From a virus: a stretch of DNA of 43,446 bases. A program made the position numbers and the translations under genes. The stretch is from IMG/VR virus record IMGVR_UViG_3300021976_000034, positions 1 to 43,446 of that record; one strand, 5' to 3'. Under the pieces are notes generated by a model. That model saw only the letters and a program-made list of their open reading frames with translations. It was not told where the DNA came from and did no database searches. Positions 21,208 to 43,248 of the stretch are shown piece by piece (the first letter of the stretch is position 1; each line of letters begins with the position of its first letter).

Positions 21208-21962
21208 GCTTGATGCGTCGATTCGTAGACGGCCGGTGGGCCCCCAGCCTCACCAGCGCGGTCGTCGCGGCGATGTTCGTCGGGGCCATCGGGATCACCT
21301 GGTCCATGAGCCAACAGCAGGACCGGGCCGACCTCGCGGTCGATCAGGCTGAGGACGTCGCGGTGCAGACGAGCCGGGTCATTGATCCATTGCTGGCACT
21401 GTGCGCGCGGGGCGACGACTTGGGGCGACTGCTCGCCGAGGCACGGACGACGGACGGCCGGCCGCTGTGCGCCATGGCGGCGATGACCAGAACCATCCCG
21501 GTTGTCGCCAATCCGCAGCTGCTGCGAGGCCCGGCCGGCGCTGCCGGGCTACGTGGCCCAGCTGGGCCTGCCGGACCTCCCGGCCCGGCCGGGCGGGCGG
21601 GGCTAGCGGGACCTGCTGGGCCCTCAGGACCAGCTGGAGCTGCCGGCCCATCGGGTCCGGCCGGACCTGCCGGGGCAGCGGGCGCGGCCGGGCCAGCGGG
21701 ACCGTCAGGCCCTGCTGGCGCGGCGGGGCCCGCCGGACCCAGCGGACCAGCCGGACCGGCCGGAGCAGCAGGTCCCAGTGGCCCAGCAGGGCCGGCGGGT
21801 GCGAACGGTGCGGACGGTGCACCGGGCGAGGCGGGCCCGGCGGGACCGCCCGGTCAGGACGCCGTGTCCCCACCCACTGAGACGCCGGAACCACCTGTGC
21901 CCACCGAGACTCCCGACCCGGGCGGACTCGTGACGCCGCTAGTTGACGACCTGGTCGGGTAA
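21204..21962 (+). CDS. Membrane-anchored collagen-like protein
   Basis: A 252-residue protein. A short cytoplasmic start is followed by one transmembrane helix ([18 protein letters not shown]). Then comes a ~70-residue region with two Cys and about 37 uninterrupted Gly-X-X triplets, mostly GPA, GPS and GAA. It ends in a Pro/Thr-rich tail. Phage collagen-like repeats usually occur in tail fibres; here the repeat is anchored by a membrane helix and sits in the lysis region, so it could be displayed on the infected or lysogenic cell. ATGA overlap with the previous gene. Function unknown. Confidence 0.65.
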
Positions 21963-23809: not shown

Positions 23810-24664
23810 ATGGCGTGGCAGAGCACAGGGCTTGTCCTGAAGGGCGAGCAGGGTGATACGGGCGCAACCGGCGCGACCGGTTCAACCGGTCCGACGGGCG
23901 CAACCGGTCCGGCGGGCGCTGACGGCGCCGGCATCGAGATCTCGGGGTCGGTCGACACCTACGCCGACCTGGCCGCGATCGCGGCAGGCTTGGGGCCCGG
24001 CGACGCCGGACACTCGTACCTGAACCGCGAGGACGGGCTCCTCTACATCTGGGACGGCGACAGCTTCCCGATCGAGGGCGACGGCGTCGAGTTCAAGGGC
24101 GAGAAGGGCGACCAGGGCGAGCCCGGCACGGACGGTTCGGCCGGCGCGGACGGGAAGACTGTGCGCTCGGGCGCGGGTACCCCGTCCTCCGGGCTCGGGG
24201 TCGACGGCGACTTCTACGTCAACACGTCCGCCTCGACGATCTACGGGCCGAAGGCGGCGGGCGCGTGGGGGAGTCCCACCAGCCTGGTTGGGCCGACCGG
24301 CTCCACGGGCTCGACCGGATCCACCGGCTCGGCCGGCTCGGCCGGCGCGGACGGCAAGACGCTGCTCAACGGCGCGGGCGTGCCGTCGGGTGGGCTGGGC
24401 GCCAATGGTGACTTCTACATCGACACCACGAACAAGAACGTCTACGGGCCGAAGGCGGCGGGCGCGTGGGGCTCAGCGACCAGCTACGTGGGTCCTCAGG
24501 GCACGACTGGCAGCACCGGGTCCACCGGCTCGACTGGTGCCACCGGTACGCGGGGCACGCGCATCACGGACGGCTCAGGCGCCCCTGGGACGGTCTCTGG
24601 GCAGCTGGTCGGTGACTACTACATCGACACCGTGAGTGGCGATCTCTACCGGCTGGACGTCTGA
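23810..24664 (+). CDS. Collagen-like fibre protein with GDFY modules (copy 1)
   Basis: A 284-residue protein: MAWQSTGLVLKGEQGDTG and more Gly-X-X triplets, a spike-type unit (SVDTYADLAAIAAGLGPGDA, NREDGLLYIWDGD), another Gly-X-X stretch, then modules of the form GKT...G.GVPSGGLG..GDFY..T....YGPKAAGAWG (two full copies and one diverged). Each module is followed by a Gly-Ser-Thr collagen-like linker. Trimeric collagen-like shafts carrying small knobs are usual for tail fibres of Gram-positive phages. The TGA overlaps the next ATG (TGATG). Confidence 0.7.
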   Translation: MAWQSTGLVLKGEQGDTGATGATGSTGPTGATGPAGADGAGIEISGSVDTYADLAAIAAGLGPGDAGHSYLNREDGLLYIWDGDSFPIEGDGVEFKGEKGDQGEPGTDGSAGADGKTVRSGAGTPSSGLGVDGDFYVNTSASTIYGPKAAGAWGSPTSLVGPTGSTGSTGSTGSAGSAGADGKTLLNGAGVPSGGLGANGDFYIDTTNKNVYGPKAAGAWGSATSYVGPQGTTGSTGSTGSTGATGTRGTRITDGSGAPGTVSGQLVGDYYIDTVSGDLYRLDV

Positions 24665-25095
24665 TGGCCTGGACAGACACCGGGGTCTCGCTGGCGGGGA
24701 CTCCGGGCGCTGACGGTGCGGACGGCGCGGACGGCGACGACGGCTCCCCGGGGGCGGACGGCAAGACCGTCCGCAACGGCACCGGCACCCCGTCGGGCGG
24801 GCTTGGGGCCGACGGCGACTTCTACATCGACACCACCCCGGGCGCGATCAAGATCTTCGGCCCGAAGACGTCCGGCACCTGGGGCTCGGGTACCAACCTC
24901 GTCGGCGCGGCTGGCTCGACCGGCTCCGCGGGCTCGGCTGGTGCGGACGGGAAGACCGTCCGCAACGGCTCAGGCGTGCCCTCGGGTGGGCTCGGCGTGG
25001 ACGGCGATTTCTACCTCAACACCGCCGCGAACACCATCTACGGCCCGAAAGCGGCCGGGGCGTGGGGATCCGCGACCAGCCTCGTGGGCCCCACG
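24157..25095 (+). repeat. Four full GDFY fibre modules across two genes
   Basis: Modules start near 24157, 24355, 24758 and 24950, with related partial copies near 24560 and in the 23547-23792 gene. DNA is close enough that short stretches are shared (GGGCCGAAGGCGGCGGGCGC at two places). The shared modules make unequal crossing-over likely and would let fibre length change. Confidence 0.7.
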
Positions 25096-25473
25096 GGTGC
25101 GACTGGCTCGACTGGCGCGGCAGGCGCGGACGGGAATGGGCTGGTGTGGTCGCAGCGCGTGGAATCCATCGCCGACACTTCCTCGCTCACCGGCAACTCG
25201 CTGTCCGGCCTGATCCAGGTCGGCGTGTGTACCGCGCTCACACAGGCGGCGGCGGTCAACCCGCCGAGCAACGGGTCGGTCGGCGCCCCCTACCGCTACA
25301 TCCTCACCGCCTCGGGTGGCGCCCGCGTGGTCACCCCGACCGGGTTCGCCGGCTCCACCGACAACGGCACCGGCGTGGCGGTCAGCGTCCCGTCCGGCAA
25401 AACCATCGTGATCTTCACCCAGTACATCGGGTCCAGCGGCTGGCTGTACGGCGGCTACGAGCTGCTCCAGTGA
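24664..25473 (+). CDS. Collagen-like fibre protein with GDFY modules (copy 2)
   Basis: A 269-residue paralogue of the preceding protein (both open MAW..TG.) with two GDFY modules separated by Gly-X-X linkers. It ends differently: residues ~170-269 form a distinct beta domain (WSQRVESIADTSSLTGNSLS, then PYRYILTASGGARVVTPTGF) that is a good candidate for a receptor-facing tip. The one-base overlap with copy 1 suggests the pair arose by tandem duplication and is made together. Confidence 0.7.
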   Translation: MAWTDTGVSLAGTPGADGADGADGDDGSPGADGKTVRNGTGTPSGGLGADGDFYIDTTPGAIKIFGPKTSGTWGSGTNLVGAAGSTGSAGSAGADGKTVRNGSGVPSGGLGVDGDFYLNTAANTIYGPKAAGAWGSATSLVGPTGATGSTGAAGADGNGLVWSQRVESIADTSSLTGNSLSGLIQVGVCTALTQAAAVNPPSNGSVGAPYRYILTASGGARVVTPTGFAGSTDNGTGVAVSVPSGKTIVIFTQYIGSSGWLYGGYELLQ

Positions 25474-31366: not shown

Positions 31367-31921
31367 TCAGCCTGCCTTGCGGGTGGAGCGACGGCGAGCC
31401 GGCTTCGCCTTCAAGACCACGCCATCCCCGGCTTCGATCACATCGGCGAACGTCAGCCCGGCCAGCGCTTGGGTCATGAGCGCGCCTTGGACCTGACGTG
31501 GTGCCATTCGCCCAAGGCCCTTGTCTTGCAGTAGGTACTGCTCGCCGTTCGGGCCGCGCACGTTGTAATCAAGGCGGCTATCGACCGGGTACCACCGGGT
31601 CTCCTCGACGCCCTTCCTAATCGCAATCTCGCCCTCCCACACGGTGAGCCGGTCGACGAGCTTGCAGTCGAGGCAGCGGGTCCGTTGGATCCGCTGCCCC
31701 TTCCTGTTCTTGCCCGCGAACGTGACACCATCGCGGGGGCGGATCACCGGGAATCGGTGATGGCCGGCGCGGCAGTTGATGCAGTCGTCGGGGATCTGGG
31801 TGATGACGTACTCGACGTCCTCTTGGTCCATCCGCCGATAGCGGGAGACAGCCTCGACCTCCTGCTCGCCTTGGATCGACTTCGACCTGATGTTCGTGAC
31901 GGGAGTTTCTGTCGTCGTCAT
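31367..31921 (-). CDS. Four-Cys zinc-ribbon protein (184 residues)
   Basis: DCINCRAGHHRFPVIRP (CxxC) and RTRCLDCKLVDRLTVWE (CxxC), separated by ~30 residues, form a classical zinc ribbon at ~residues 46-90. The C-terminal part ends in a very basic tail (AKPARRRSTRKAG), suggesting nucleic-acid binding. It lies between a BldC-type HTH gene (ATGA overlap) and the Lsr2-like gene, so a regulatory role is plausible but not proven. Confidence 0.65.
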   Translation of the reverse strand: MTTTETPVTNIRSKSIQGEQEVEAVSRYRRMDQEDVEYVITQIPDDCINCRAGHHRFPVIRPRDGVTFAGKNRKGQRIQRTRCLDCKLVDRLTVWEGEIAIRKGVEETRWYPVDSRLDYNVRGPNGEQYLLQDKGLGRMAPRQVQGALMTQALAGLTFADVIEAGDGVVLKAKPARRRSTRKAG

Positions 31922-32142
31922 CCTTCACTCTTTCTCTGTGGGGGTATTGCGGCTGAGTTCCTGAGGTGTTGCTGGACGGTGCTGCGGTAGACACGGAAGG
32001 ACCGTCCAATTCGGACGGCCGGGAGATCTCCGCTATTGATCATCCGATAGACAGTCATCTTCGAGCACCGGAACAGCGCGGCGATCTCGGCGGCGGTCAT
32101 CAGTTGGTCGCCTTGCACGGGGCTCGCGTTACGCCTGCTCAT
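31918..32142 (-). CDS. BldC/excisionase-type HTH DNA-binding protein
   Basis: A 74-residue protein with one winged HTH of the MerR/excisionase (HTH_17) class: MTAAEIAALFRCSKMTVYRM, then INSGDLPAVRIGRSFRVY and STVQQHL. This matches BldC-like regulators and phage excisionases. I use the ATG at 32142 because AGAGGTG precedes it; an ATG 21 bases upstream is also in frame. It may be a recombination directionality factor or a transcription regulator; it is far from the integrase, which favours regulation. Confidence 0.75.
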   Translation of the reverse strand: MSRRNASPVQGDQLMTAAEIAALFRCSKMTVYRMINSGDLPAVRIGRSFRVYRSTVQQHLRNSAAIPPQRKSEG

Positions 32143-32159
32143 GGGTTCACCTCTCGTGA

Positions 32160-32471
32160 TCATCCGAGCACGTACTCACGGTCGTCCGTGACATACGGCA
32201 GCTGCTGCCTCACCCCGTCTTTGTAGAGCGCGACCCTGGAGTGGGTACGAGCATCGACACCGTAACGGGTCACGCCGGCCCCGAGCACGCCCTCATCTTG
32301 AGAGGTCTCGTAAGCGTCCTTCAAGGCCTGGGCTTCGCTTGACCACAACGCCTCGGTCGGTGCAACGATGACCTTGCCGGACAGTGATCTTCTGGCTGCG
32401 TGCACTCCCCAAGACGTCGCCTGACCACGCGGTTGAGGAACCCCGTTAGTCGCTGGATCCCCGCTGCTCAT
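32160..32471 (-). CDS. Hypothetical protein (103 residues), coupled to a leader ORF
   Basis: The product has a disordered start and an alpha/beta end (GVTRYGVDARTHSRVALYKD, QQLPYVTDDREYVLG). No family is recognised. There is no ribosome site before its ATG; instead the ATG overlaps the stop of a tiny upstream ORF (ATGA), so it is probably translated by re-initiation. Confidence 0.5.
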   Translation of the reverse strand: MSSGDPATNGVPQPRGQATSWGVHAARRSLSGKVIVAPTEALWSSEAQALKDAYETSQDEGVLGAGVTRYGVDARTHSRVALYKDGVRQQLPYVTDDREYVLG

Positions 32472-35931: not shown

Positions 35932-36104
35932 TGCTCGTCCGGGTCAGCCGCACCCGATGCGAGGAATGCCAGGGCGCCACGATGTGGTGCCAACCGAGGT
36001 GCCGGGCCGACACCGACGGCTGGCTCGGCACCGAGCACGAACCCCGCAAATGCGAAACCTGCGAAGGCCTGGGCTGGGTGCCCGGGTTCGTCATCCCCTG
36101 CTAG
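35931..36104 (+). CDS. 57-residue zinc-ribbon protein
   Basis: CEEC, a middle C...C pair and KCETCEGLGWVPG give six Cys in DnaJ-type knuckles. The last (CETCEGLGW) copies the CxxCxGxG rule. The ATG overlaps the previous stop by one base. Likely binds nucleic acid or protein; no specific function. Confidence 0.6.
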   Translation: MLVRVSRTRCEECQGATMWCQPRCRADTDGWLGTEHEPRKCETCEGLGWVPGFVIPC

Positions 36105-36109
36105 GAATA

Positions 36110-36138
36110 GGCCCCCGCCGCGCGTTGCGACGGGGGCC
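36110..36138 (+). terminator. Hairpin within the small-gene operon
   Basis: An 8-bp GC-only stem (36110-36117 with 36131-36138) with a second short inner pairing and a 13-base loop. It is followed by CGCTCTCATCTC, not a T-run. It sits in the only sizeable gap of this part of the operon and is likely an attenuator or processing stem. Confidence 0.5.
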
Positions 36139-36160
36139 GCTCTCATCTCTGGAGACCCCG

Positions 36161-36793
36161 ATGACCGTCCCCCACCCCATCCCGCCGTCCAGGATCGGGC
36201 AGCTGCCCCTCGATAAGCATGGGCGCCCGATCCCGTGGTTCGTCCACATCGAGGCCGGGGTACCGGACTTCCGGGTCATCCGACGCGACGGCATCGTCGA
36301 CGCCTACCAATTCGGCTGGTGCTGGATCTGCGGCACGCCGCGTGGCCGGCACGCCGCGTTCGTCATCGGGCCGATGTGCGCCGTCAACCGGGTCAGCGCC
36401 GAACCCCCGTCACACCTCGACTGCGCGATCTACGCCGCGCAGGCCTGCCCGTTCCTGGCCAACCCGAACATGGTCCGCCGCGAACGCGGGCTGGTCGAGA
36501 TGGGACGCGTCGAACCTCCCGGGGTCATGATCATGCGCAACCCTGGAGTCGCGCTCGTCTGGTCCTCCAAGACGTGGGCACCGTTCAAGGCACCCGACGG
36601 CGGGGCACTCTTCGGCATCGGCGACCCCACCGCCACCCGCTGGTACGCCCACGGCCGGGCCGCCACCCGCGACGAAGTACTCGCCTCCATCGACGCCGGG
36701 CTCCCGACACTGCGCGAGGCCGCCGACGCCGAAGGTGTGGGCGCGCAGCTCGACGACGAGCTGGCCCGCGCGCTGGAACTTGTGCCGCGATGA
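36161..36793 (+). CDS. Conserved actinobacterial/actinophage protein with Cys motifs (210 residues)
   Basis: A well-formed protein: LDKHGRPIPWFVHIEAGVPD, FGWCWICGTPRGRHAAFVIG, PMCAVNRVSAEPPSHLDCAI and ACPFLANPNMVRRERG. These fixed blocks (WxCG, GPMCAVNR, PPSH..C, CPFL) recur in actinobacterial genomes and phages, always as protein of unknown function as far as I know. The five or more Cys and one His in the first 105 residues suggest a metal site. It is the largest gene in the small-gene operon. Start after CTGGAGA; the next gene overlaps by ATGA. Confidence 0.75.
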   Translation: MTVPHPIPPSRIGQLPLDKHGRPIPWFVHIEAGVPDFRVIRRDGIVDAYQFGWCWICGTPRGRHAAFVIGPMCAVNRVSAEPPSHLDCAIYAAQACPFLANPNMVRRERGLVEMGRVEPPGVMIMRNPGVALVWSSKTWAPFKAPDGGALFGIGDPTATRWYAHGRAATRDEVLASIDAGLPTLREAADAEGVGAQLDDELARALELVPR

Positions 36794-37312: not shown

Positions 37313-37494
37313 CCGACCCGGCGCAGCCGTGCCCGTGCGGACGGATCCTGGTCGGCGTCGAGCACATGAGCAGACCGGACTGGCACGGCGGGCACGACTG
37401 GATAGATGACGGCCGGGTGTGCTGCCTCGCCCGCGCTCAGTGGAAGGGGCAGCTGTGCTGGTGTCGAGCGACCCGATGGGTGCCCAACCAGTGA
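37309..37494 (+). CDS. 61-residue Cys/His-rich protein
   Basis: PCPCGRILVG, then HGGHDWIDDG and VCCLARAQWKGQLCWC give six Cys and three His, a probable zinc site. ATGA start overlap. Its stop touches the palindrome-rich tract that follows. Confidence 0.6.
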   Translation: MTDPAQPCPCGRILVGVEHMSRPDWHGGHDWIDDGRVCCLARAQWKGQLCWCRATRWVPNQ

Positions 37495-37628
37495 TGGCCG
37501 TGGCCAAGATCAACGGCCACGTGGCCACTCGATCTTGGCCACGGCCAACCGGTCCACATGGCCACGCAACTGCGTGGCCAACCCGCGCAGCTGTGCAACC
37601 TGGCCACGCAACTGCGTGGCCACGATGA
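37494..37628 (+). CDS. Possible 44-residue ORF inside the palindrome array
   Basis: An open frame from an ATG overlapping the previous stop (TGATG). The predicted product, with two GHATAWP repeats, only mirrors the DNA repeats, so it may not be a real protein. Listed because of the tight overlap. Confidence 0.25.
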   Translation: MAVAKINGHVATRSWPRPTGPHGHATAWPTRAAVQPGHATAWPR

Positions 37629-37645
37629 GACCATGGCCGTGGCCA
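37494..37645. repeat. Array of TGGCCA-centred palindromes (array 1)
   Basis: TGGCCA occurs eight times (37501, 37522, 37536, 37559, 37575, 37601, 37617, 37640). Two identical 22-base elements, TGGCCACGCA-AC-TGCGTGGCCA, at 37559-37580 and 37601-37622 are perfect 10-bp inverted repeats spaced 42 bases apart. A 17-bp inverted repeat (37495-37511 with 37531-37547) encloses the 12-base palindrome GGCCACGTGGCC (37515-37526). It is the longest gap between well-supported genes in this operon. Confidence 0.85.
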
Positions 37646-37673
37646 CACCTCCCCAACTCCCGAAGGAACGATC

Positions 37674-38024
37674 ATGACCGACGAACACTGGTGGGAGACC
37701 CGCCGCGAAGGCGAGCGCAGCAACGAGTACCTCGCCCGCGTGCTCACCGCCATGCACGCCGACGAGCTAGCCACCAACGCCCGCGCCTACCACTACGACG
37801 ACTTCGCCTGCCCGCCCGAGATCGACGACGGCATGCCCCAACACCGCCTCCTCAACGACCTCCACCGCTGGGCCCGCGCCTCACCCATGGTCAACGAAGC
37901 CCGCGTCAACGAAGTAGCGAGGGCAGTGATCAACGGCGAGTTCGACGGCACCGTGGCAGAGTCCGAAGCCTGGGCCAAGAGCCCCGAAGGCCAGAAGACG
38001 TTCAAGGATCTGATGGGCGGATGA
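37674..38024 (+). CDS. Hypothetical protein (116 residues)
   Basis: GAAGGAA before the ATG. A polar, helical protein (RSNEYLARVLTAMHADELAT, then VNEVARAVINGEFDG). A set of Trp residues near the start (DEHWWETRRE). No family recognised. It restarts the operon after the palindrome array. Confidence 0.6.
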   Translation: MTDEHWWETRREGERSNEYLARVLTAMHADELATNARAYHYDDFACPPEIDDGMPQHRLLNDLHRWARASPMVNEARVNEVARAVINGEFDGTVAESEAWAKSPEGQKTFKDLMGG

Positions 38025-38245
38025 TCAAAGCAACCGGGTGCGGCAAGGACGGCACCCCCGTGCTGTTCCTGGGACTGTCCGCCGAGAACAGAAAGCGACT
38101 CGGCGAGGACCAACCGATCATGGTCCGCGCCGATCACGTCGACCCCCGACTGCCCGCCATCACCGTGGTCCTGCTGGGCGGCGACACCGAGGAGTCCATC
38201 GCCGCCCAGCTGCAAGAGCAGCTGCCCCCCGTGGTGGAGTCGTGA
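38021..38245 (+). CDS. Hypothetical alpha/beta protein (74 residues)
   Basis: Starts MIKATGCGKDGTPVLFLGLS and continues with PAITVVLLGGDTEESIAAQL. A compact alpha/beta fold; similar small proteins occur in actinophages without known role. ATGA start; the next GTG overlaps its stop. Confidence 0.55.
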   Translation: MIKATGCGKDGTPVLFLGLSAENRKRLGEDQPIMVRADHVDPRLPAITVVLLGGDTEESIAAQLQEQLPPVVES

Positions 38246-38544
38246 AGTGGCCCGAGTGGTCCGACATCGAACCCTGGTCACTGCGAGCCGGCTTCGCATG
38301 GTTCCTCGGCTGTGCTGTCGGCTCCTGGGGCGCGGGGACTCCCGTGGCGGGGTGGCAAGTCTGGGCCGGCATCGCACTCACCGTCTGGGTACCCATCGCC
38401 GACCTGGTGATCCGGCTCGTCCGCTGCGGGCGGCCCACCCACAAGATCGTCAAGGTGTTCCACCACGACGGGACCGAGTGCATCCCAGACGACTTCGACG
38501 ACCTTCGCTACCACGAGGCTCGACCTGAGGATGGACACCTGTGA
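38242..38544 (+). CDS. Membrane protein (100 residues)
   Basis: Two hydrophobic helices (SLRAGFAWFLGCAVGSWGAG and WQVWAGIALTVWVPIADLVI) followed by a soluble tail (HKIVKVFHHDGTECIPDDFD). GTG in a GTGA overlap. Function unknown. Confidence 0.55.
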   Translation: MKWPEWSDIEPWSLRAGFAWFLGCAVGSWGAGTPVAGWQVWAGIALTVWVPIADLVIRLVRCGRPTHKIVKVFHHDGTECIPDDFDDLRYHEARPEDGHL

Positions 38545-38783
38545 AGTGGCACGAGATCGAGCCCAAGGACGCCGTAGGCATCGACCTGTCCGTGCGCCTG
38601 GACATCGAGGCACCGCTCACCTCCGACGGCGAACGCTGCCCGTGGCCGTGGGATCCCCAGCAACTCGTGGGGGCCCCGATGGGGCAGTACCACTGCCCGT
38701 ACTGCGGCGAGATGGTCCTCGCCGGAGTGCCGCACGTGGACTACCGCGAGCAGCCCGAGCCTGATCAAGGTGCAGGCTCATGA
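38541..38783 (+). CDS. Zinc-finger protein with GQYHCPYCG motif (80 residues)
   Basis: The core LVGAPMGQYHCPYCGEMVLA, GVPHVDY is a recurring actinophage small-protein signature. CPYC with an earlier Cys (ERCPWPW) and His residues could bind zinc. GTG overlaps the previous stop (GTGA). Function unknown. Confidence 0.65.
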   Translation: MKWHEIEPKDAVGIDLSVRLDIEAPLTSDGERCPWPWDPQQLVGAPMGQYHCPYCGEMVLAGVPHVDYREQPEPDQGAGS

Positions 38784-39046
38784 GTGACTGCTCCGTGACC
38801 GGCGGCACGCACGTGTTCGTTCCGGTCGAGACCAGCACCGACGCCGAGGGCCGCGTGACCGAGGTGTCCCGCTGCGGGTGCGGCGCGTCGCAGACGATCA
38901 CCGGCCCCAGCCCCGGCCCAGCTGACGACTTGATGATGAGGACCGGGAAGCTGCTGATCGAGTTGTACGGCAACCTTCCACCCGGCTCCATCGAACAAGC
39001 CGCGACGGTCTACGACCCGCCGAGCTGGCGGCCCCGGGCCTGGTGA
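38780..39046 (+). CDS. Hypothetical protein (88 residues)
   Basis: SDCSVTGGTHVFVPVETSTD, then VSRCGCGASQTI: Cys residues and a beta-rich start reminiscent of the small H-V-F..C.CG zinc-like proteins. A helical end (DLMMRTGKLLIELYGNLPP). Last gene before the 39068 hairpin. Confidence 0.55.
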   Translation: MSDCSVTGGTHVFVPVETSTDAEGRVTEVSRCGCGASQTITGPSPGPADDLMMRTGKLLIELYGNLPPGSIEQAATVYDPPSWRPRAW

Positions 39047-39067
39047 GGGGCGGTAGTCTGACGAATT

Positions 39068-39110
39068 GAGGCCCCCACCCGGTGCTCCAAGCTTCCTGGG
39101 TGGGGGCCTC
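39068..39110 (+). terminator. Terminator-type hairpin between operon segments
   Basis: A perfect 13-bp stem (39068-39080 with 39098-39110) and 17-base loop, without a T-run. A TAGTCT -10-like box lies just before it (39054-39059), so the stem might also sit at the very 5' end of a new message. The remaining 39111-39212 contains no recognisable gene. Confidence 0.6.
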
Positions 39111-39212
39111 GCTATGACTGCGGCAGCGGGCGGAACGCCCCTGACCTGGGGAGACACTGCTCCTAATAGGTGCTTTATCTGGGGCTCCGGCAACCCGAAA
39201 CCCGAGTTAACG

Positions 39213-39226
39213 TACTATCTCCGGCT
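39213..39226 (+). promoter_or_regulatory. -10 box of a probable leaderless promoter
   Basis: TACTAT (39213-39218) lies eight bases before the ATG at 39227. No ribosome site is present between them, so transcription probably starts at or near the A of the ATG. No good -35 box is seen. Confidence 0.45.
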
Positions 39227-39448
39227 ATGACGAACTCCCAAGCCCCTGACCAGGGGAAACCGGCCGAATTCGATTTGCTCTACAACACGCCGGTGTGCGA
39301 CCTGTCGCTCACCGACCTGCACCGGATCATCCGGCGCGCCCAGCGGCGCCAGAGGAAGGCCGCTTGGCTGCCGCATCGACAGCGGAGGATCCGGATCCTG
39401 GTGGCCGCGCGCCGACGTCGGATCGACGCGATCGCGGGATCCCGATGA
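39227..39448 (+). CDS. Small basic protein, probably leaderless (73 residues)
   Basis: The product has an Asp/Thr-rich middle (LLYNTPVCDLSLTDLHRI) and a long basic helix (IRRAQRRQRKAAWLPHRQRR, RILVAARRRRIDAIAG), suggesting RNA or DNA binding. The promoter -10 box is immediately upstream and there is no Shine-Dalgarno. ATGA overlap with the next gene. Confidence 0.55.
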   Translation: MTNSQAPDQGKPAEFDLLYNTPVCDLSLTDLHRIIRRAQRRQRKAAWLPHRQRRIRILVAARRRRIDAIAGSR

Positions 39449-39753
39449 CCGACAGCGGCCGGTCCGGGCTGGACCCGAGTTGCACGACGTTCATCGTTGA
39501 ACTCTCACCGCACCAGCTCGACCTCTCTGGGTACGCGGGTGACTTCGCTGACGACTACGACATGGACGCCGTGCGCGCCGACTTCATCTCGCTGATCAAC
39601 TGCGAGCTGCCCGACGGCATCAGCCTCTGCGCCAACGGGCAGGTGTACGCCACGCTCGACCAGGCCGACAACGCCCGCGACATCGACTGGTCCGACGTCT
39701 GCAACCGGCTCAACGTCGAACCGATCTTCGAGCGCCACGAGGTGAAGCGGTGA
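39445..39753 (+). CDS. Hypothetical acidic protein (102 residues)
   Basis: TTFIVELSPHQLDLSGYAGD, then DYDMDAVRADFISLINCELP and DISWSDV-like segments. Strong negative charge and a regular alpha/beta pattern could suit a DNA-mimic or regulator, but this is speculation. ATGA start, GTGA end. Confidence 0.55.
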   Translation: MTDSGRSGLDPSCTTFIVELSPHQLDLSGYAGDFADDYDMDAVRADFISLINCELPDGISLCANGQVYATLDQADNARDIDWSDVCNRLNVEPIFERHEVKR

Positions 39754-39986
39754 CCAGGTGGCGCTGTGAGTTCGAGCGGGTTGGGCGGCACCACGACGTG
39801 CCGCCTGTGGTCGTCGAGGCCGAGACCGCCGACCAGCTGGCCGAGAAGGTGTACCGGGCGGTGAACCACCGACTGCTGTCCAGCGCCGTCGAGGTCGTTG
39901 TCGATCTTGAAAAAGGTACCGGCAACATCTTCTGCGGCTTCCAGTCCGGCGGCACCTTCACCGTCCTCGCCGAGGAGCAGTCATGA
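39750..39986 (+). CDS. Hypothetical protein (78 residues)
   Basis: An alpha/beta protein (WRCEFERVGRHHDVPPVVVE, AETADQLAEKVYRAVNHRLL, VEVVVDLEKGTGNIFCGF). It looks like a small ferredoxin-like domain. GTG in a GTGA overlap. Function unknown. Confidence 0.55.
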   Translation: MTRWRCEFERVGRHHDVPPVVVEAETADQLAEKVYRAVNHRLLSSAVEVVVDLEKGTGNIFCGFQSGGTFTVLAEEQS

Positions 39987-40255
39987 CCTGTCGGTACTGC
40001 GGCGGCGCGCGGCTGGTGGCGCGTGGCCCGGTGCAGTCCGCGCACACCGACGCCCCGTGGCGCCGGTTCCGGTGCGCGGACTGCATGGCCGAGATGGACT
40101 TCGCCCAGCCCGCCGCCAACCGCTGGCGCCGGCTGAAGCTGTGGTACTGCGACCGGCGCCACCGGGCGACCGACCACCGCTTCGACTACTGCGAGTGCGG
40201 GCAGAGCTGGCCGTGCAACACCCGGCGGAACCTGCTGAGCGGGGGTCGCTGGTGA
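39983..40255 (+). CDS. Multi-Cys zinc-finger protein (90 residues)
   Basis: MTCRYCGGARLVARG, RRFRCADCMAEMDF and DYCECGQSWPCN supply eight Cys, enough for two zinc sites. The middle is basic (NRWRRLKLWYCDRRHRA). Resembles small transcription-factor-like ribbons. ATGA overlap in, GTGA overlap out. Confidence 0.65.
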   Translation: MTCRYCGGARLVARGPVQSAHTDAPWRRFRCADCMAEMDFAQPAANRWRRLKLWYCDRRHRATDHRFDYCECGQSWPCNTRRNLLSGGRW

Positions 40256-40470
40256 AGCGCTATCAGGTGATGGCCGGTTTGCCCATGGAGATCGAGGTGT
40301 ACCTCGGTGGCCGCTACGTGGCCACGATCCGTGGCCACGTGGATTCGATCCGGGGGTCGGGCGGGTCGATGGCCACGGCGCTGCGTGTCGTGGCCACGGA
40401 CATGACCATGGCCATGGTCACTGAGCCGGCGGTGGCCGTGGCCACGGAGGGGGAGTCATGCCAAGGCTGA
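40252..40470 (+). CDS. Hypothetical protein encoded over palindrome array 2 (72 residues)
   Basis: Starts MKRYQVMAGLPMEIEVYLGG. The second half is Val/Ala/Thr-rich (ATALRVVATDMTMAMVTEPA) because the DNA there is full of TGGCCA repeats. GTG overlaps the previous stop, and its last 13 bases overlap the integrase gene. The first half looks like a real beta-strand protein; the second may be shaped by DNA function. Confidence 0.5.
   Translation: MKRYQVMAGLPMEIEVYLGGRYVATIRGHVDSIRGSGGSMATALRVVATDMTMAMVTEPAVAVATEGESCQG
40319..40444. repeat. Array of TGGCCA-centred palindromes (array 2)
   Basis: TGGCCA occurs six times (40319, 40332, 40370, 40391, 40409, 40439), mostly inside CGTGGCCACG. The array ends 13 bases before the integrase start. 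It shares the core palindrome with array 1, about 2.7 kb upstream. Confidence 0.8.
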
Positions 40471-42116
40471 GTTCGAGGGTGTCCGGGCGGACGCTGACCG
40501 CTGCGGACGTGCAGCGGCGGCCACGGCTGCGCGTGTTGGAGGAGGTGCAGAAGCCGAAGAAGGCGACGCTGTGTGTGCGGATCTCCGATGCCCGGGACTA
40601 CATGGATGAGACCGGGCAGCGGATCACTGACACGGAGGGTGTGAACCTCCAGATCACGAACGGCCTGGAGTACGCCGACCGGATCGGCTGGATCATCGAC
40701 AAGATCCGTACCGAGAACGACGTGTCCGAGTTCAAGCGGAAGAAGGTGCTCCAGCCGAACGGCCGCTACGCGCTGCGGACGGTCCGCCCCGACTGGCAGG
40801 CCGTGCTGGACGATCTGGCCTCCGGCGCTCAGGACGGTCTACTGGTCATCGCGCTCGACCGATCCATGCGCGACCCCCGCGATCTTGAGGACCTGATCGA
40901 CGTCGTCGAGTCTCGGATGCCTCGGATCCCGGTCGAGTCGGTGTCGGGGTCACTGAAGCTGTCCTCCGACGCTGAAGTGACCATGGCCCGGAACATGGTC
41001 AACTACGCCAACCTTGCGTCGCGGGACACCCGCCGCAGGGTGATTCTCCGCCGGATCGACCAGGCGGAGAAGGGCTACTGGGGAGGCGGGCGCCGCCCTT
41101 TCGGGTTCGGAGTGCCGACGGGGCTGAAGACGCCGCGCGGGTTCCCCGAGTTCGACGTCACGCGGCAGGTCCCGGCAGAGGTCGCCGAGATCAAGCACGC
41201 CGCCGAGTCGCTTCTAGCGGGTGTGTCGTTGCGGGAGCTGGCCGCCGACCTGCGCCGGCGCAACGTGGCGACCGTGACCGGTGGGACGTGGACGAGTAGC
41301 AGCTTGCGGGACGTCCTGCTACGTCCCCGCAACGCCGGCCTGTCGGTCTACGACGGGTTGATTCTTGAGGGTGTCCTGATCGAGGGTGTCGACGAGGACC
41401 ACCCGCCGATCCTGGAGCGCGCGACGTGGGAAGCCGTGGCGGCCATCCTGACCAACCCACAGCGCCGCGTGGGGCCGGGCCCGGCCCCACGCTGGCTGGG
41501 CAGCGGTCTCTACCTGTGCGGCCACCCCAACTGCGTAGGCAGCAATCCTCGCCAGACGCTGATCGCGGGCCGAAGCTCGGGCGGGGGCACCCGCGCCTAC
41601 GTGTGCACAGGCGGCAAAGTGCACCTTGCTCGTGTGGCCGAGGCCACCGACGAGTACGTGGAGGGGGCGATCGTGCTGCGGCTGATGGACCCGGACGCGG
41701 TGGAGCTGTGCACCCCTCAGCCTGGTGTGGACACCGCCGCGTTGGCCGCCGAGGCGAACGCGATCCGAGAGGTCGTCGCTGACCTCGGTGATCTGCACCA
41801 GCGGCGCAAGATCACCAAGGCCGAGCGTGAGCGCCGGACCGACGAGCTGGAGACTGAGCTGGAGGGGATCAACAGGATGCTCCGGGGCACGGCGGGCACG
41901 GATCCACTCGCCGCGATCGCCGGGAATCCGAACGCCAAGGAACTGTGGGCGGACCTGCCGCTCGCCACGAAGCGCGCCATCATCCGCCGAGTTCTGCGGG
42001 TAACGATCTTGCCGTGCAAACCTGGACAGCCGCCTGGCTACAAGCGAGGCAGCCGGAAGAACCACGTGAGACCGGAGTCCATCAAGATGGAGTGGATCGT
42101 GCCGGACACACGATAG
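40458..42116 (+). CDS. int: Large serine integrase
   Basis: A 552-residue serine recombinase. After a 35-residue basic extension the catalytic domain begins (CVRISDARDYMDETG; R41 and nucleophile S43 of the RxS motif) and contains ALDRSMRDPRDLEDL. A recombinase domain follows (RRPFGFGVP, then VSLRELAADLRRRNV and SSSLRDVLLRPRNAGLSVYD). Then come a zinc-ribbon region (YLCGHPNCVGS ... YVCTGG) and a coiled coil (~residues 430-480). This is the normal plan of phage integrases that join attP to attB by double-strand breaks, with no host factor. A GGAGGGGGAG site precedes the ATG. Confidence 0.9.
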   Translation: MPRLSSRVSGRTLTAADVQRRPRLRVLEEVQKPKKATLCVRISDARDYMDETGQRITDTEGVNLQITNGLEYADRIGWIIDKIRTENDVSEFKRKKVLQPNGRYALRTVRPDWQAVLDDLASGAQDGLLVIALDRSMRDPRDLEDLIDVVESRMPRIPVESVSGSLKLSSDAEVTMARNMVNYANLASRDTRRRVILRRIDQAEKGYWGGGRRPFGFGVPTGLKTPRGFPEFDVTRQVPAEVAEIKHAAESLLAGVSLRELAADLRRRNVATVTGGTWTSSSLRDVLLRPRNAGLSVYDGLILEGVLIEGVDEDHPPILERATWEAVAAILTNPQRRVGPGPAPRWLGSGLYLCGHPNCVGSNPRQTLIAGRSSGGGTRAYVCTGGKVHLARVAEATDEYVEGAIVLRLMDPDAVELCTPQPGVDTAALAAEANAIREVVADLGDLHQRRKITKAERERRTDELETELEGINRMLRGTAGTDPLAAIAGNPNAKELWADLPLATKRAIIRRVLRVTILPCKPGQPPGYKRGSRKNHVRPESIKMEWIVPDTR

Positions 42117-42210: not shown

Positions 42211-42254
42211 GCCGCCCGTCTGACGCTGTCAGATGGGCGGCTTTCGTCTGTTTG
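42211..42254 (+). terminator. Terminator after the integrase gene
   Basis: A 14-bp stem with one G-U pair (42211-42224 with 42228-42241) and a 3-base loop, followed by TTTCGTCTGTTT. It ends the integrase message. The 42117-42210 stretch holds no gene; attP could lie here but no half-site pair could be identified by eye. Confidence 0.8.
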
Positions 42255-42281
42255 GCAGGGCAGACATCCACGCCCTTAAAT
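42252..42281 (+). promoter_or_regulatory. Promoter for a leaderless XRE regulator
   Basis: TTGGCA (42252-42257) and TTAAAT (42276-42281) are 18 bases apart. The ATG follows 8 bases after the -10 box, so the message probably has almost no leader. It directly follows the integrase terminator, giving a new transcription unit. Confidence 0.5.
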
Positions 42282-42289
42282 ACCGCCCC

Positions 42290-42532
42290 ATGCACCCGCT
42301 GCACTACTCACCGGCCCGGCTCCGCGCCATCCGGGTTGAGACGGGGTTGACCCGATCGGACCTGGCTCTGGCCTGCGGAATGTCGCCCGGGACGATCAAG
42401 GACTACGAGGCCGGCCGGCACGCTCCAGGCGCGTTCGCATTGGGTCGGCTGGCCACCGCGCTGGGCTGCTCGGTGGACGACTTCTACACCCGGTTCCGCT
42501 TCGAGGCGGTGAGCGTCGATGTCGCAGCCTGA
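42290..42532 (+). CDS. XRE-family HTH regulator (80 residues)
   Basis: A classic Cro/C1 HTH fills most of the protein: LRAIRVETGLTRSDLALACG, MSPGTIKDYEAGRHAPGAFA, LGRLATALGCSVDDFYTRF. It lies beside the integrase at the start of a new rightward unit. It may control integrase/excision or replication genes. The frame extends upstream into the terminator, so the ATG at 42290 next to the promoter is chosen. Confidence 0.8.
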   Translation: MHPLHYSPARLRAIRVETGLTRSDLALACGMSPGTIKDYEAGRHAPGAFALGRLATALGCSVDDFYTRFRFEAVSVDVAA

Positions 42533-42990: not shown

Positions 42991-43248
42991 GTGACGAACG
43001 ATCCGTCATCCGCGCAGCCGGGCGATCTGGTTGAGAAGTTGGGCGACAAGCTTTACAGCGGAGTGCTCACGCTCGAACAGGCTCGCGCTGCATTGCGCGT
43101 CTCGAAGTACACCCTCGCCAAGATGATCAAGAACGGCGAACTGAAGGCCATCAAAATCGGCCCCAAGTACTACATCGGCGAGGGAACCCTCAACGCCTAC
43201 ATCGACAACGCGCAGGGAAACGCCACGAACGGCACCACACCCAGCTAA
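42991..43248 (+). CDS. Excisionase/HTH_17-type DNA-binding protein (85 residues)
   Basis: Strong AAGGAGG ribosome site and GTG start. The core LTLEQARAALRVSKYTLAKM, IKNGELKAIKIGPKYYI and EGTLNAYIDN is a MerR/excisionase-type winged HTH. Lying 0.9 kb after the integrase, it is a reasonable recombination directionality factor or early regulator. The protein is longer and more acidic at the N-terminus than the BldC-type one at 31918. Confidence 0.7.
   Translation: MTNDPSSAQPGDLVEKLGDKLYSGVLTLEQARAALRVSKYTLAKMIKNGELKAIKIGPKYYIGEGTLNAYIDNAQGNATNGTTPS

Follow-up and report, generated by a model that had tools for sequence, protein, structure and literature searches.

Two arrays of a TGGCCA palindrome ahead of the serine integrase gene in an actinophage-like virus record

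The question addressed here is what two dense clusters of the palindrome TGGCCA are doing ahead of the large serine integrase gene of the IMG/VR virus record IMGVR_UViG_3300021976_000034, all 43,446 bases of which were analyzed and are referred to below as the window. An earlier note on this DNA had reported eight sites in array 1 and six in array 2, on either side of a block of small genes, and had listed as possible roles a replication origin, a partition or protein-loading site, binding sites for the integrase or a recombination directionality factor, or a recombination hot spot. We find that the arrays are real and far beyond chance, that array 2 is maintained or was built at the level of DNA rather than of peptide, and that an iteron-like platform for several copies of a DNA-binding protein is the best reading, held at about even probability.

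Array density, consensus and coding context

Array 1 (37494-37646) contains eight TGGCCA sites in 145 bp (37501-37645), starting at 37501, 37522, 37536, 37559, 37575, 37601, 37617 and 37640, while array 2 (40317-40446), 2.7 kb away, contains six in 126 bp (40319-40444), starting at 40319, 40332, 40370, 40391, 40409 and 40439. The window has 33 sites in total, against 12.8 +/- 3.6 expected from 100 dinucleotide shuffles, and 14 of them lie within the arrays, compared with 19 in all remaining sequence. The maximum per 150 bp in 200 simulations each was three under a third-order and four under a fifth-order Markov model, so the density does exceed by far what a six-base word would give, as had been claimed. 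GTGGCCA together with its complement, with 11 occurrences in 141 bp, is the densest 7-mer of the window; all 11 (GTGGCCA/TGGCCAC) belong to array 1. When extended and with the flanks symmetrized, the sites of both arrays yield the same 10-bp palindrome, CGTGGCCACG. The C and G that follow TGGCCA are found in 69 and 81% of cases in array 1 and in 75 and 92% in array 2, and this extension is absent in the 19 background sites.

Of the two small genes that flank array 1, one open reading frame (ORF) ends at 37494 and the other starts at 37674, and the array takes up the 179 bp that separate them. A possible 44-amino-acid ORF of doubtful coding status (37494-37628, plus strand) runs through it; its start overlaps the upstream stop, and seven TGGCCA are seen in it against 0.6 expected from the peptide. 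A perfect 17-bp inverted repeat, TGGCCGTGGCCAAGATC / GATCTTGGCCACGGCCA, occupies 37495-37511 and 37531-37547 with 19 nt between its arms, exactly as first described. The two identical 22-mer palindromes TGGCCACGCAACTGCGTGGCCA (37559-37580 and 37601-37622, start distance 42) are likewise present and exact. Since each is held within one copy of a 25-bp direct repeat (37556-37580 and 37598-37622, together spanning 37556-37622, 96% identical), their 42-bp spacing is the product of a single local duplication and does not represent two independent sites.

Such copying is also the basis of a different explanation, which we regard as possible yet doubtful, i.e. that local duplication and hairpin-templated copying let a palindrome seed repeats in a tolerant spot, with little or no function. 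The direct and inverted repeats of array 1 hold identical non-core bases (GCAACTGC, AAGATC), pointing to copied blocks. Against it, no long blocks are duplicated in array 2, which is part of an ORF whose codons are biased, and two separate arrays have the same 10-bp consensus.

Array 2 lies within a 72-amino-acid ORF (40252-40470, plus strand) that extends past the integrase start at 40458. Neither PHROGs nor the phage collection contained a match to this ORF, and none of the relatives encodes its peptide. The final site ends 13 bases ahead of the integrase start codon; the array therefore does end next to the integrase, as had been noted, but inside a reading frame and not between genes. When the peptide was redrawn 20,000 times with genome codon usage, 1.5 sites were expected and at least six arose in 1/20,000 cases (P 5e-5); the codon usage of the gene itself, into which the array already enters, gave a P of 0.025. 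Because the codons are biased toward TGGCCA, the signal of array 2 is kept or built at the DNA level and not at the peptide level. Arrays that are written into a coding frame by way of synonymous codons are unusual.

The same test bears on the idea that the word merely reflects protein repeats, encoding Val-Ala-Thr or Gly-His stretches. This does occur among the matches of our scan for arrays elsewhere, some of which are protein repeats (G003 and L019): the spacings in L019 are all multiples of three, and the sites of L014 lie in a repetitive structural-type protein. In the window, on the other hand, only 1/7 of the array-1 and 3/5 of the array-2 spacings are multiples of three, and for array 2 the synonymous test rejects the idea, leaving it very improbable indeed.

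Relatives and other carriers of the word

The integrase, 37674-38021, the array-2 peptide and 39980-40252, used as baits, retrieved no close relatives from those of the viral, genome and phage collections that were searched with each. With the portal protein as bait, 47 relatives were found, the closest of which (89-96%) are under 20 kb and lack the right arm, and none of 25 records had a TGGCCA array. Nor did any of the best 80 of the 160 relatives obtained with bait 36098-36790. Relatives possessing the flanking gene at 37674 (48%) or 36098 (72%) are without arrays, and in the syntenic L309 packed genes occupy the position of array 1. The arrays were thus gained in this lineage, so that they may serve to regulate the adjacent integrase or may have expanded neutrally by local duplication; the latter explanation gains from these arrayless relatives. 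The bait gene itself (36098-36793) is unnamed, has 160 viral-contig relatives and no Pfam or PHROG match, and represents a widespread unknown phage protein. One phage that has it in common with the window carries seven palindromes of another word, ACCGGT, in 143 bp (L322:4442-4584).

How special the word is depends on the size of array considered. In phage contigs, three-site clusters of 8-bp GC palindromes were found at 38 loci for GTGGCCAC, compared with 45 and 65 for the control words GTGCGCAC and GGTGCACC, i.e. the controls are equally common, as local duplication would have it. Large arrays, with at least 10 core sites per 500 bp, exceed the controls instead (14 loci versus 3 and 3), although several of the 14 are closely related, belonging to one prophage family, so that fewer than 14 are independent. 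In 397 actinobacterial genomes and 299 of the Pseudonocardia acaciae family (~700), dense three-site matches were isolated and no commoner than those of a reversed control, except on a single 8.2-kb P. acaciae contig with 10 of them. In 10 actinobacterial genomes, CGTGGCCACG was not over-represented and had approximately the frequency of its reversed control, which, as far as these genomes go, speaks against a genome-wide host word of the Chi, KOPS or HIP1 type. We found nothing relevant in the literature on the TGGCCA word; that no described element has this core holds as far as these searches go, but iterons as a kind of element have been described.

The P. acaciae array (L203:257-660) has 27 TGGCCA in 404 noncoding bp, in an irregular layout and with a CG extension resembling that of the window. 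Downstream of it come a small ORF of ribbon-helix-helix-like type, a gene resembling those for replication proteins, and parA-parB, the latter ~3.4 kb from the array, and the contig appears plasmid-like from its ribbon-helix-helix-, Rep-, ParA- and ParB-like genes, the identities of which were read from sequence. Other carriers are diverse and include unrelated phages. A DUF2637 gene of G001 contains 38 TGGCCA, where its peptide would lead one to expect 9.5-19, and in G002 and G005 the arrays are located at genes of the DUF2637 or a DUF2637-like type. In G006, replication-like genes are preceded by 17 noncoding sites. In G017-G019, TTGTGGCCACAA boxes are found beside a small ORF with a recurring sequence. 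Of the two arrays of G007, the first is found ~200 bp upstream of a serine integrase and the second precedes a small ORF; no similarity between its integrase and that of the window was detectable by BLASTP.

The G007 arrangement is one point in favor of an operator of the integrase operon or lysogeny switch, in which a repressor at array 2 would block integrase transcription or start while array 1 helps by looping. Further points are the 13 bases that separate the end of array 2 from the integrase start codon, and two proteins with helix-turn-helix (HTH) domains encoded nearby, at 42233-42532 (XRE) and 42991-43248. Against it, the position of array 2 is internal to an ORF overlapping the integrase, rather than at a promoter; a search for sigma-70 promoter-like sites, of a type poorly suited to actinobacteria, found none; and the arrays adjoin a PF07508 recombinase in only 2/7 array-bearing records with one (window counted). 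On balance, we consider such an operator unlikely.

Several observations made alongside concern the same or similar words. The 38 TGGCCA of a DUF2637 gene at L018:81-1253 occupy several different codon contexts and are clearly more than synonymous codon choice would lead one to expect. Boxes of TTGTGGCCACAA, with a spacing of mostly 24-35 bp, occur at L031:1008-1106, L035:4069-4168 and L011:8292-8389, upstream of a recurring small ORF (~73 amino acids, REFIRWY motif) in three phages. Other palindromes (GTGCAC, TGCGCA) form irregular arrays at L235:61-230, L273:6429-6560, L247:1104-1192 and L062:2862-2986, of which the L273 array adjoins AT-rich sequence and the L247 array an exact DnaA-box match; these are perhaps other phage origins with other words. 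DnaA boxes next to arrays of any word numbered four in three loci versus ~1.6 expected, a weak excess.

The most informative carriers belong to a prophage family (L008, L009, L015, L016, L017, L022, L024, L032, L036 and L038) in which 8-13 TGGCCA, mostly as GTGGCCAC, lie between a DUF7146-Toprim_3-DUF927 primase-helicase gene and a RuvC-like gene, directly downstream of the helicase (L009:4034-4680 and equivalents in other members). The array stays in the same place while its sites vary in number and spacing and its spacers in sequence, and variable columns amount to 5/70 in the sites versus 74/280 elsewhere (P 3e-4), a constraint that speaks against neutral duplication. Arrays of the control words were not found in the same primase-RuvC gap. 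According to PMC7581432, the origins of Staphylococcus aureus pathogenicity islands (SaPI) are made up of short iterons that immediately follow the gene for the Rep helicase, and the Rep helicase of SaPIbov1 is a relative of DUF927. Because of this matching location and the constrained sites, the GTGGCCAC array is a good candidate for an iteron origin, and the TGGCCA word could thus serve as a candidate iteron in this family. For the window this offers an analogy and not a homology, as no protein or flanking DNA is common to both except for a weak recombinase similarity.

The sites of the DUF927 family are furthermore separate and do not form paired stems, which is of relevance to the suggestion that the arrays are transcribed and act as structured RNA, with stem-loops as leader, attenuator or processing signals. 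Array 1 does fold at -104 kcal/mol (z -10.9), and array 2 has a z of -5.4. However, palindrome arrays fold well on both strands, so such z-scores are to be expected from the DNA word; there was no Rfam match, and homologues for covariation were lacking. A role as RNA accordingly appears improbable.

A possible multi-site binding platform

We consider it about an even call that the two arrays are an iteron-like multi-site protein-binding platform, a reading preferred to the others on account of the DNA-level maintenance of array 2, the DUF927-family arrays and the P. acaciae plasmid context. The arrays would then be clusters of a ~10-bp palindromic recognition site, CGTGGCCACG, acting in cis as a docking platform, with one sequence-specific DNA-binding protein, probably phage-encoded, loading in several copies on each array. 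Being 2.7 kb apart, the arrays could loop or pair, as iterons and two-part origins do, and occupancy at array 2, just before the integrase start, could also lower integrase expression. As to the end function, replication or copy control is placed first, as a tentative suggestion, followed by control of the integrase operon, which is less probable, and by partition, which is less probable still. From the broad list in the earlier note, then, it is the multi-site protein-binding element that we retain; its helical-turn argument fails.

A number of results weigh against such a platform. The sites show no consistent phasing of 10-11 bp, with mean resultant lengths at 10.5 bp of 0.33 and 0.13 (random ~0.31), so that helical phasing, and with it the proposal that the 42 bp represent about four helical turns, is not supported. 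No replication initiator, primase or helicase was recognized among the window proteins scanned, a part of the ORFs of a record that may itself be a fragment. Neither an AT-rich segment nor a DnaA box was found at the arrays, the lowest-GC stretches of the window being near 34.2 and 42.8 kb, and GC skew, which the earlier note had suggested as a way of mapping an origin, does not switch there. The array of the P. acaciae plasmid is absent from plasmids with a related Rep, and no DNA-binding protein common to the array-bearing elements was detected by phmmer, which fits duplication as well. To these is added the absence of arrays from relatives with the flanking genes. With their clustered motif copies the arrays would act like an iteron array, but since two defining features, i.e. 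a linked initiator gene and an AT-rich segment or DnaA box, were not found, membership among origins is not claimed.

Comparison with known systems gives a similarly mixed picture. As in the iteron origins of Rep helicases (SaPI Rep, DUF927/Cch; PMC7581432), many copies of a short word are clustered in a mobile element, and the GTGGCCAC array downstream of the DUF927 helicase adds to the likeness; in the window, by contrast, neither a helicase nor an AT-rich segment at the arrays was seen, and one array is part of coding sequence beside an integrase gene. Mycobacteriophage RedRock also has two multi-copy loci in an actinophage, parS-L and parS-R, in both of which an 8-bp motif occurs eight times (PMC7157519). 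These are direct repeats recognized by its ParB in a phage without an integrase, whereas the sites of the window are palindromic with no directly repeated 8-bp motif of this type, an integrase is present, and no parA or parB was recognized among the window proteins scanned. The iterons of phage-inducible chromosomal island-like elements (PLE), recognized by RepA and the nuclease Odn, are similar as semi-palindromic repeats serving as initiator sites, and a natural PLE variant was made by local duplication; they comprise three repeats of ~30 bp (PMC8263062), compared with 6-8 sites of ~10 bp in the window.

No attP-like repeat was found directly downstream of the integrase gene. The attP of large serine integrases is one short site next to the integrase gene, with inverted symmetry, placed at the crossover and defined by attL and attR; the record contains no host junctions. 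Array 2 likewise adjoins the integrase gene and has inverted symmetry, but the window has two arrays 2.7 kb apart, and this multi-site layout argues against such an attP.

Gene context and meaning

The window reads as an actinophage, judging by the relatives of its portal protein, an encoded Lsr2-like protein, the serine integrase and the HTH proteins. By tblastn, the portal protein (120-1778) has relatives among phages of Gordonia, Mycobacterium and Streptomyces, and since no terminase was noticed upstream of it the record may be a fragment. The integrase (40458-42116, plus strand), with Resolvase and Recombinase domains and overlapping the array-2 ORF, has only distant phage relatives (~28% identity). 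Besides the two HTH proteins mentioned above, an HTH_17 protein is encoded at 31918-32163. Within the small-gene block between the arrays (37674-40255, plus strand), homologues were found only for 37674-38024 (six loci in related phages, best 48%) and 39750-39986 (one). The sole sizeable noncoding gap between the arrays holds a strong GC hairpin, GAGGCCCCCACCC...GGGTGGGGGCCTC (39068-39110), which precedes a possible promoter region of the integrase operon. Downstream of the structural genes, collagen-like Gly-Pro-Ala and Gly-Ala-Thr-Gly-style repeats are found within ORFs, at 21530-21760 and 23810-25200.

A wider claim, which we put forward as unlikely on present evidence, is that unrelated actinobacterial phages and a plasmid independently build dense CGTGGCCACG arrays, partly within genes by means of synonymous codons and without a detectable common encoded binding protein. 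This would imply a factor, encoded by host or element and diverged beyond detection, that the mobile DNA of this phylum recruits by means of such arrays. Should the arrays of the window be initiator or regulator sites, they would offer a direct way into the control of replication or lysogeny in an actinophage group about which little is known, and CGTGGCCACG arrays would be a cheap and specific DNA probe for the binding protein. For the prophage family, the GTGGCCAC array after the DUF927 primase-helicase gene is a testable origin candidate.

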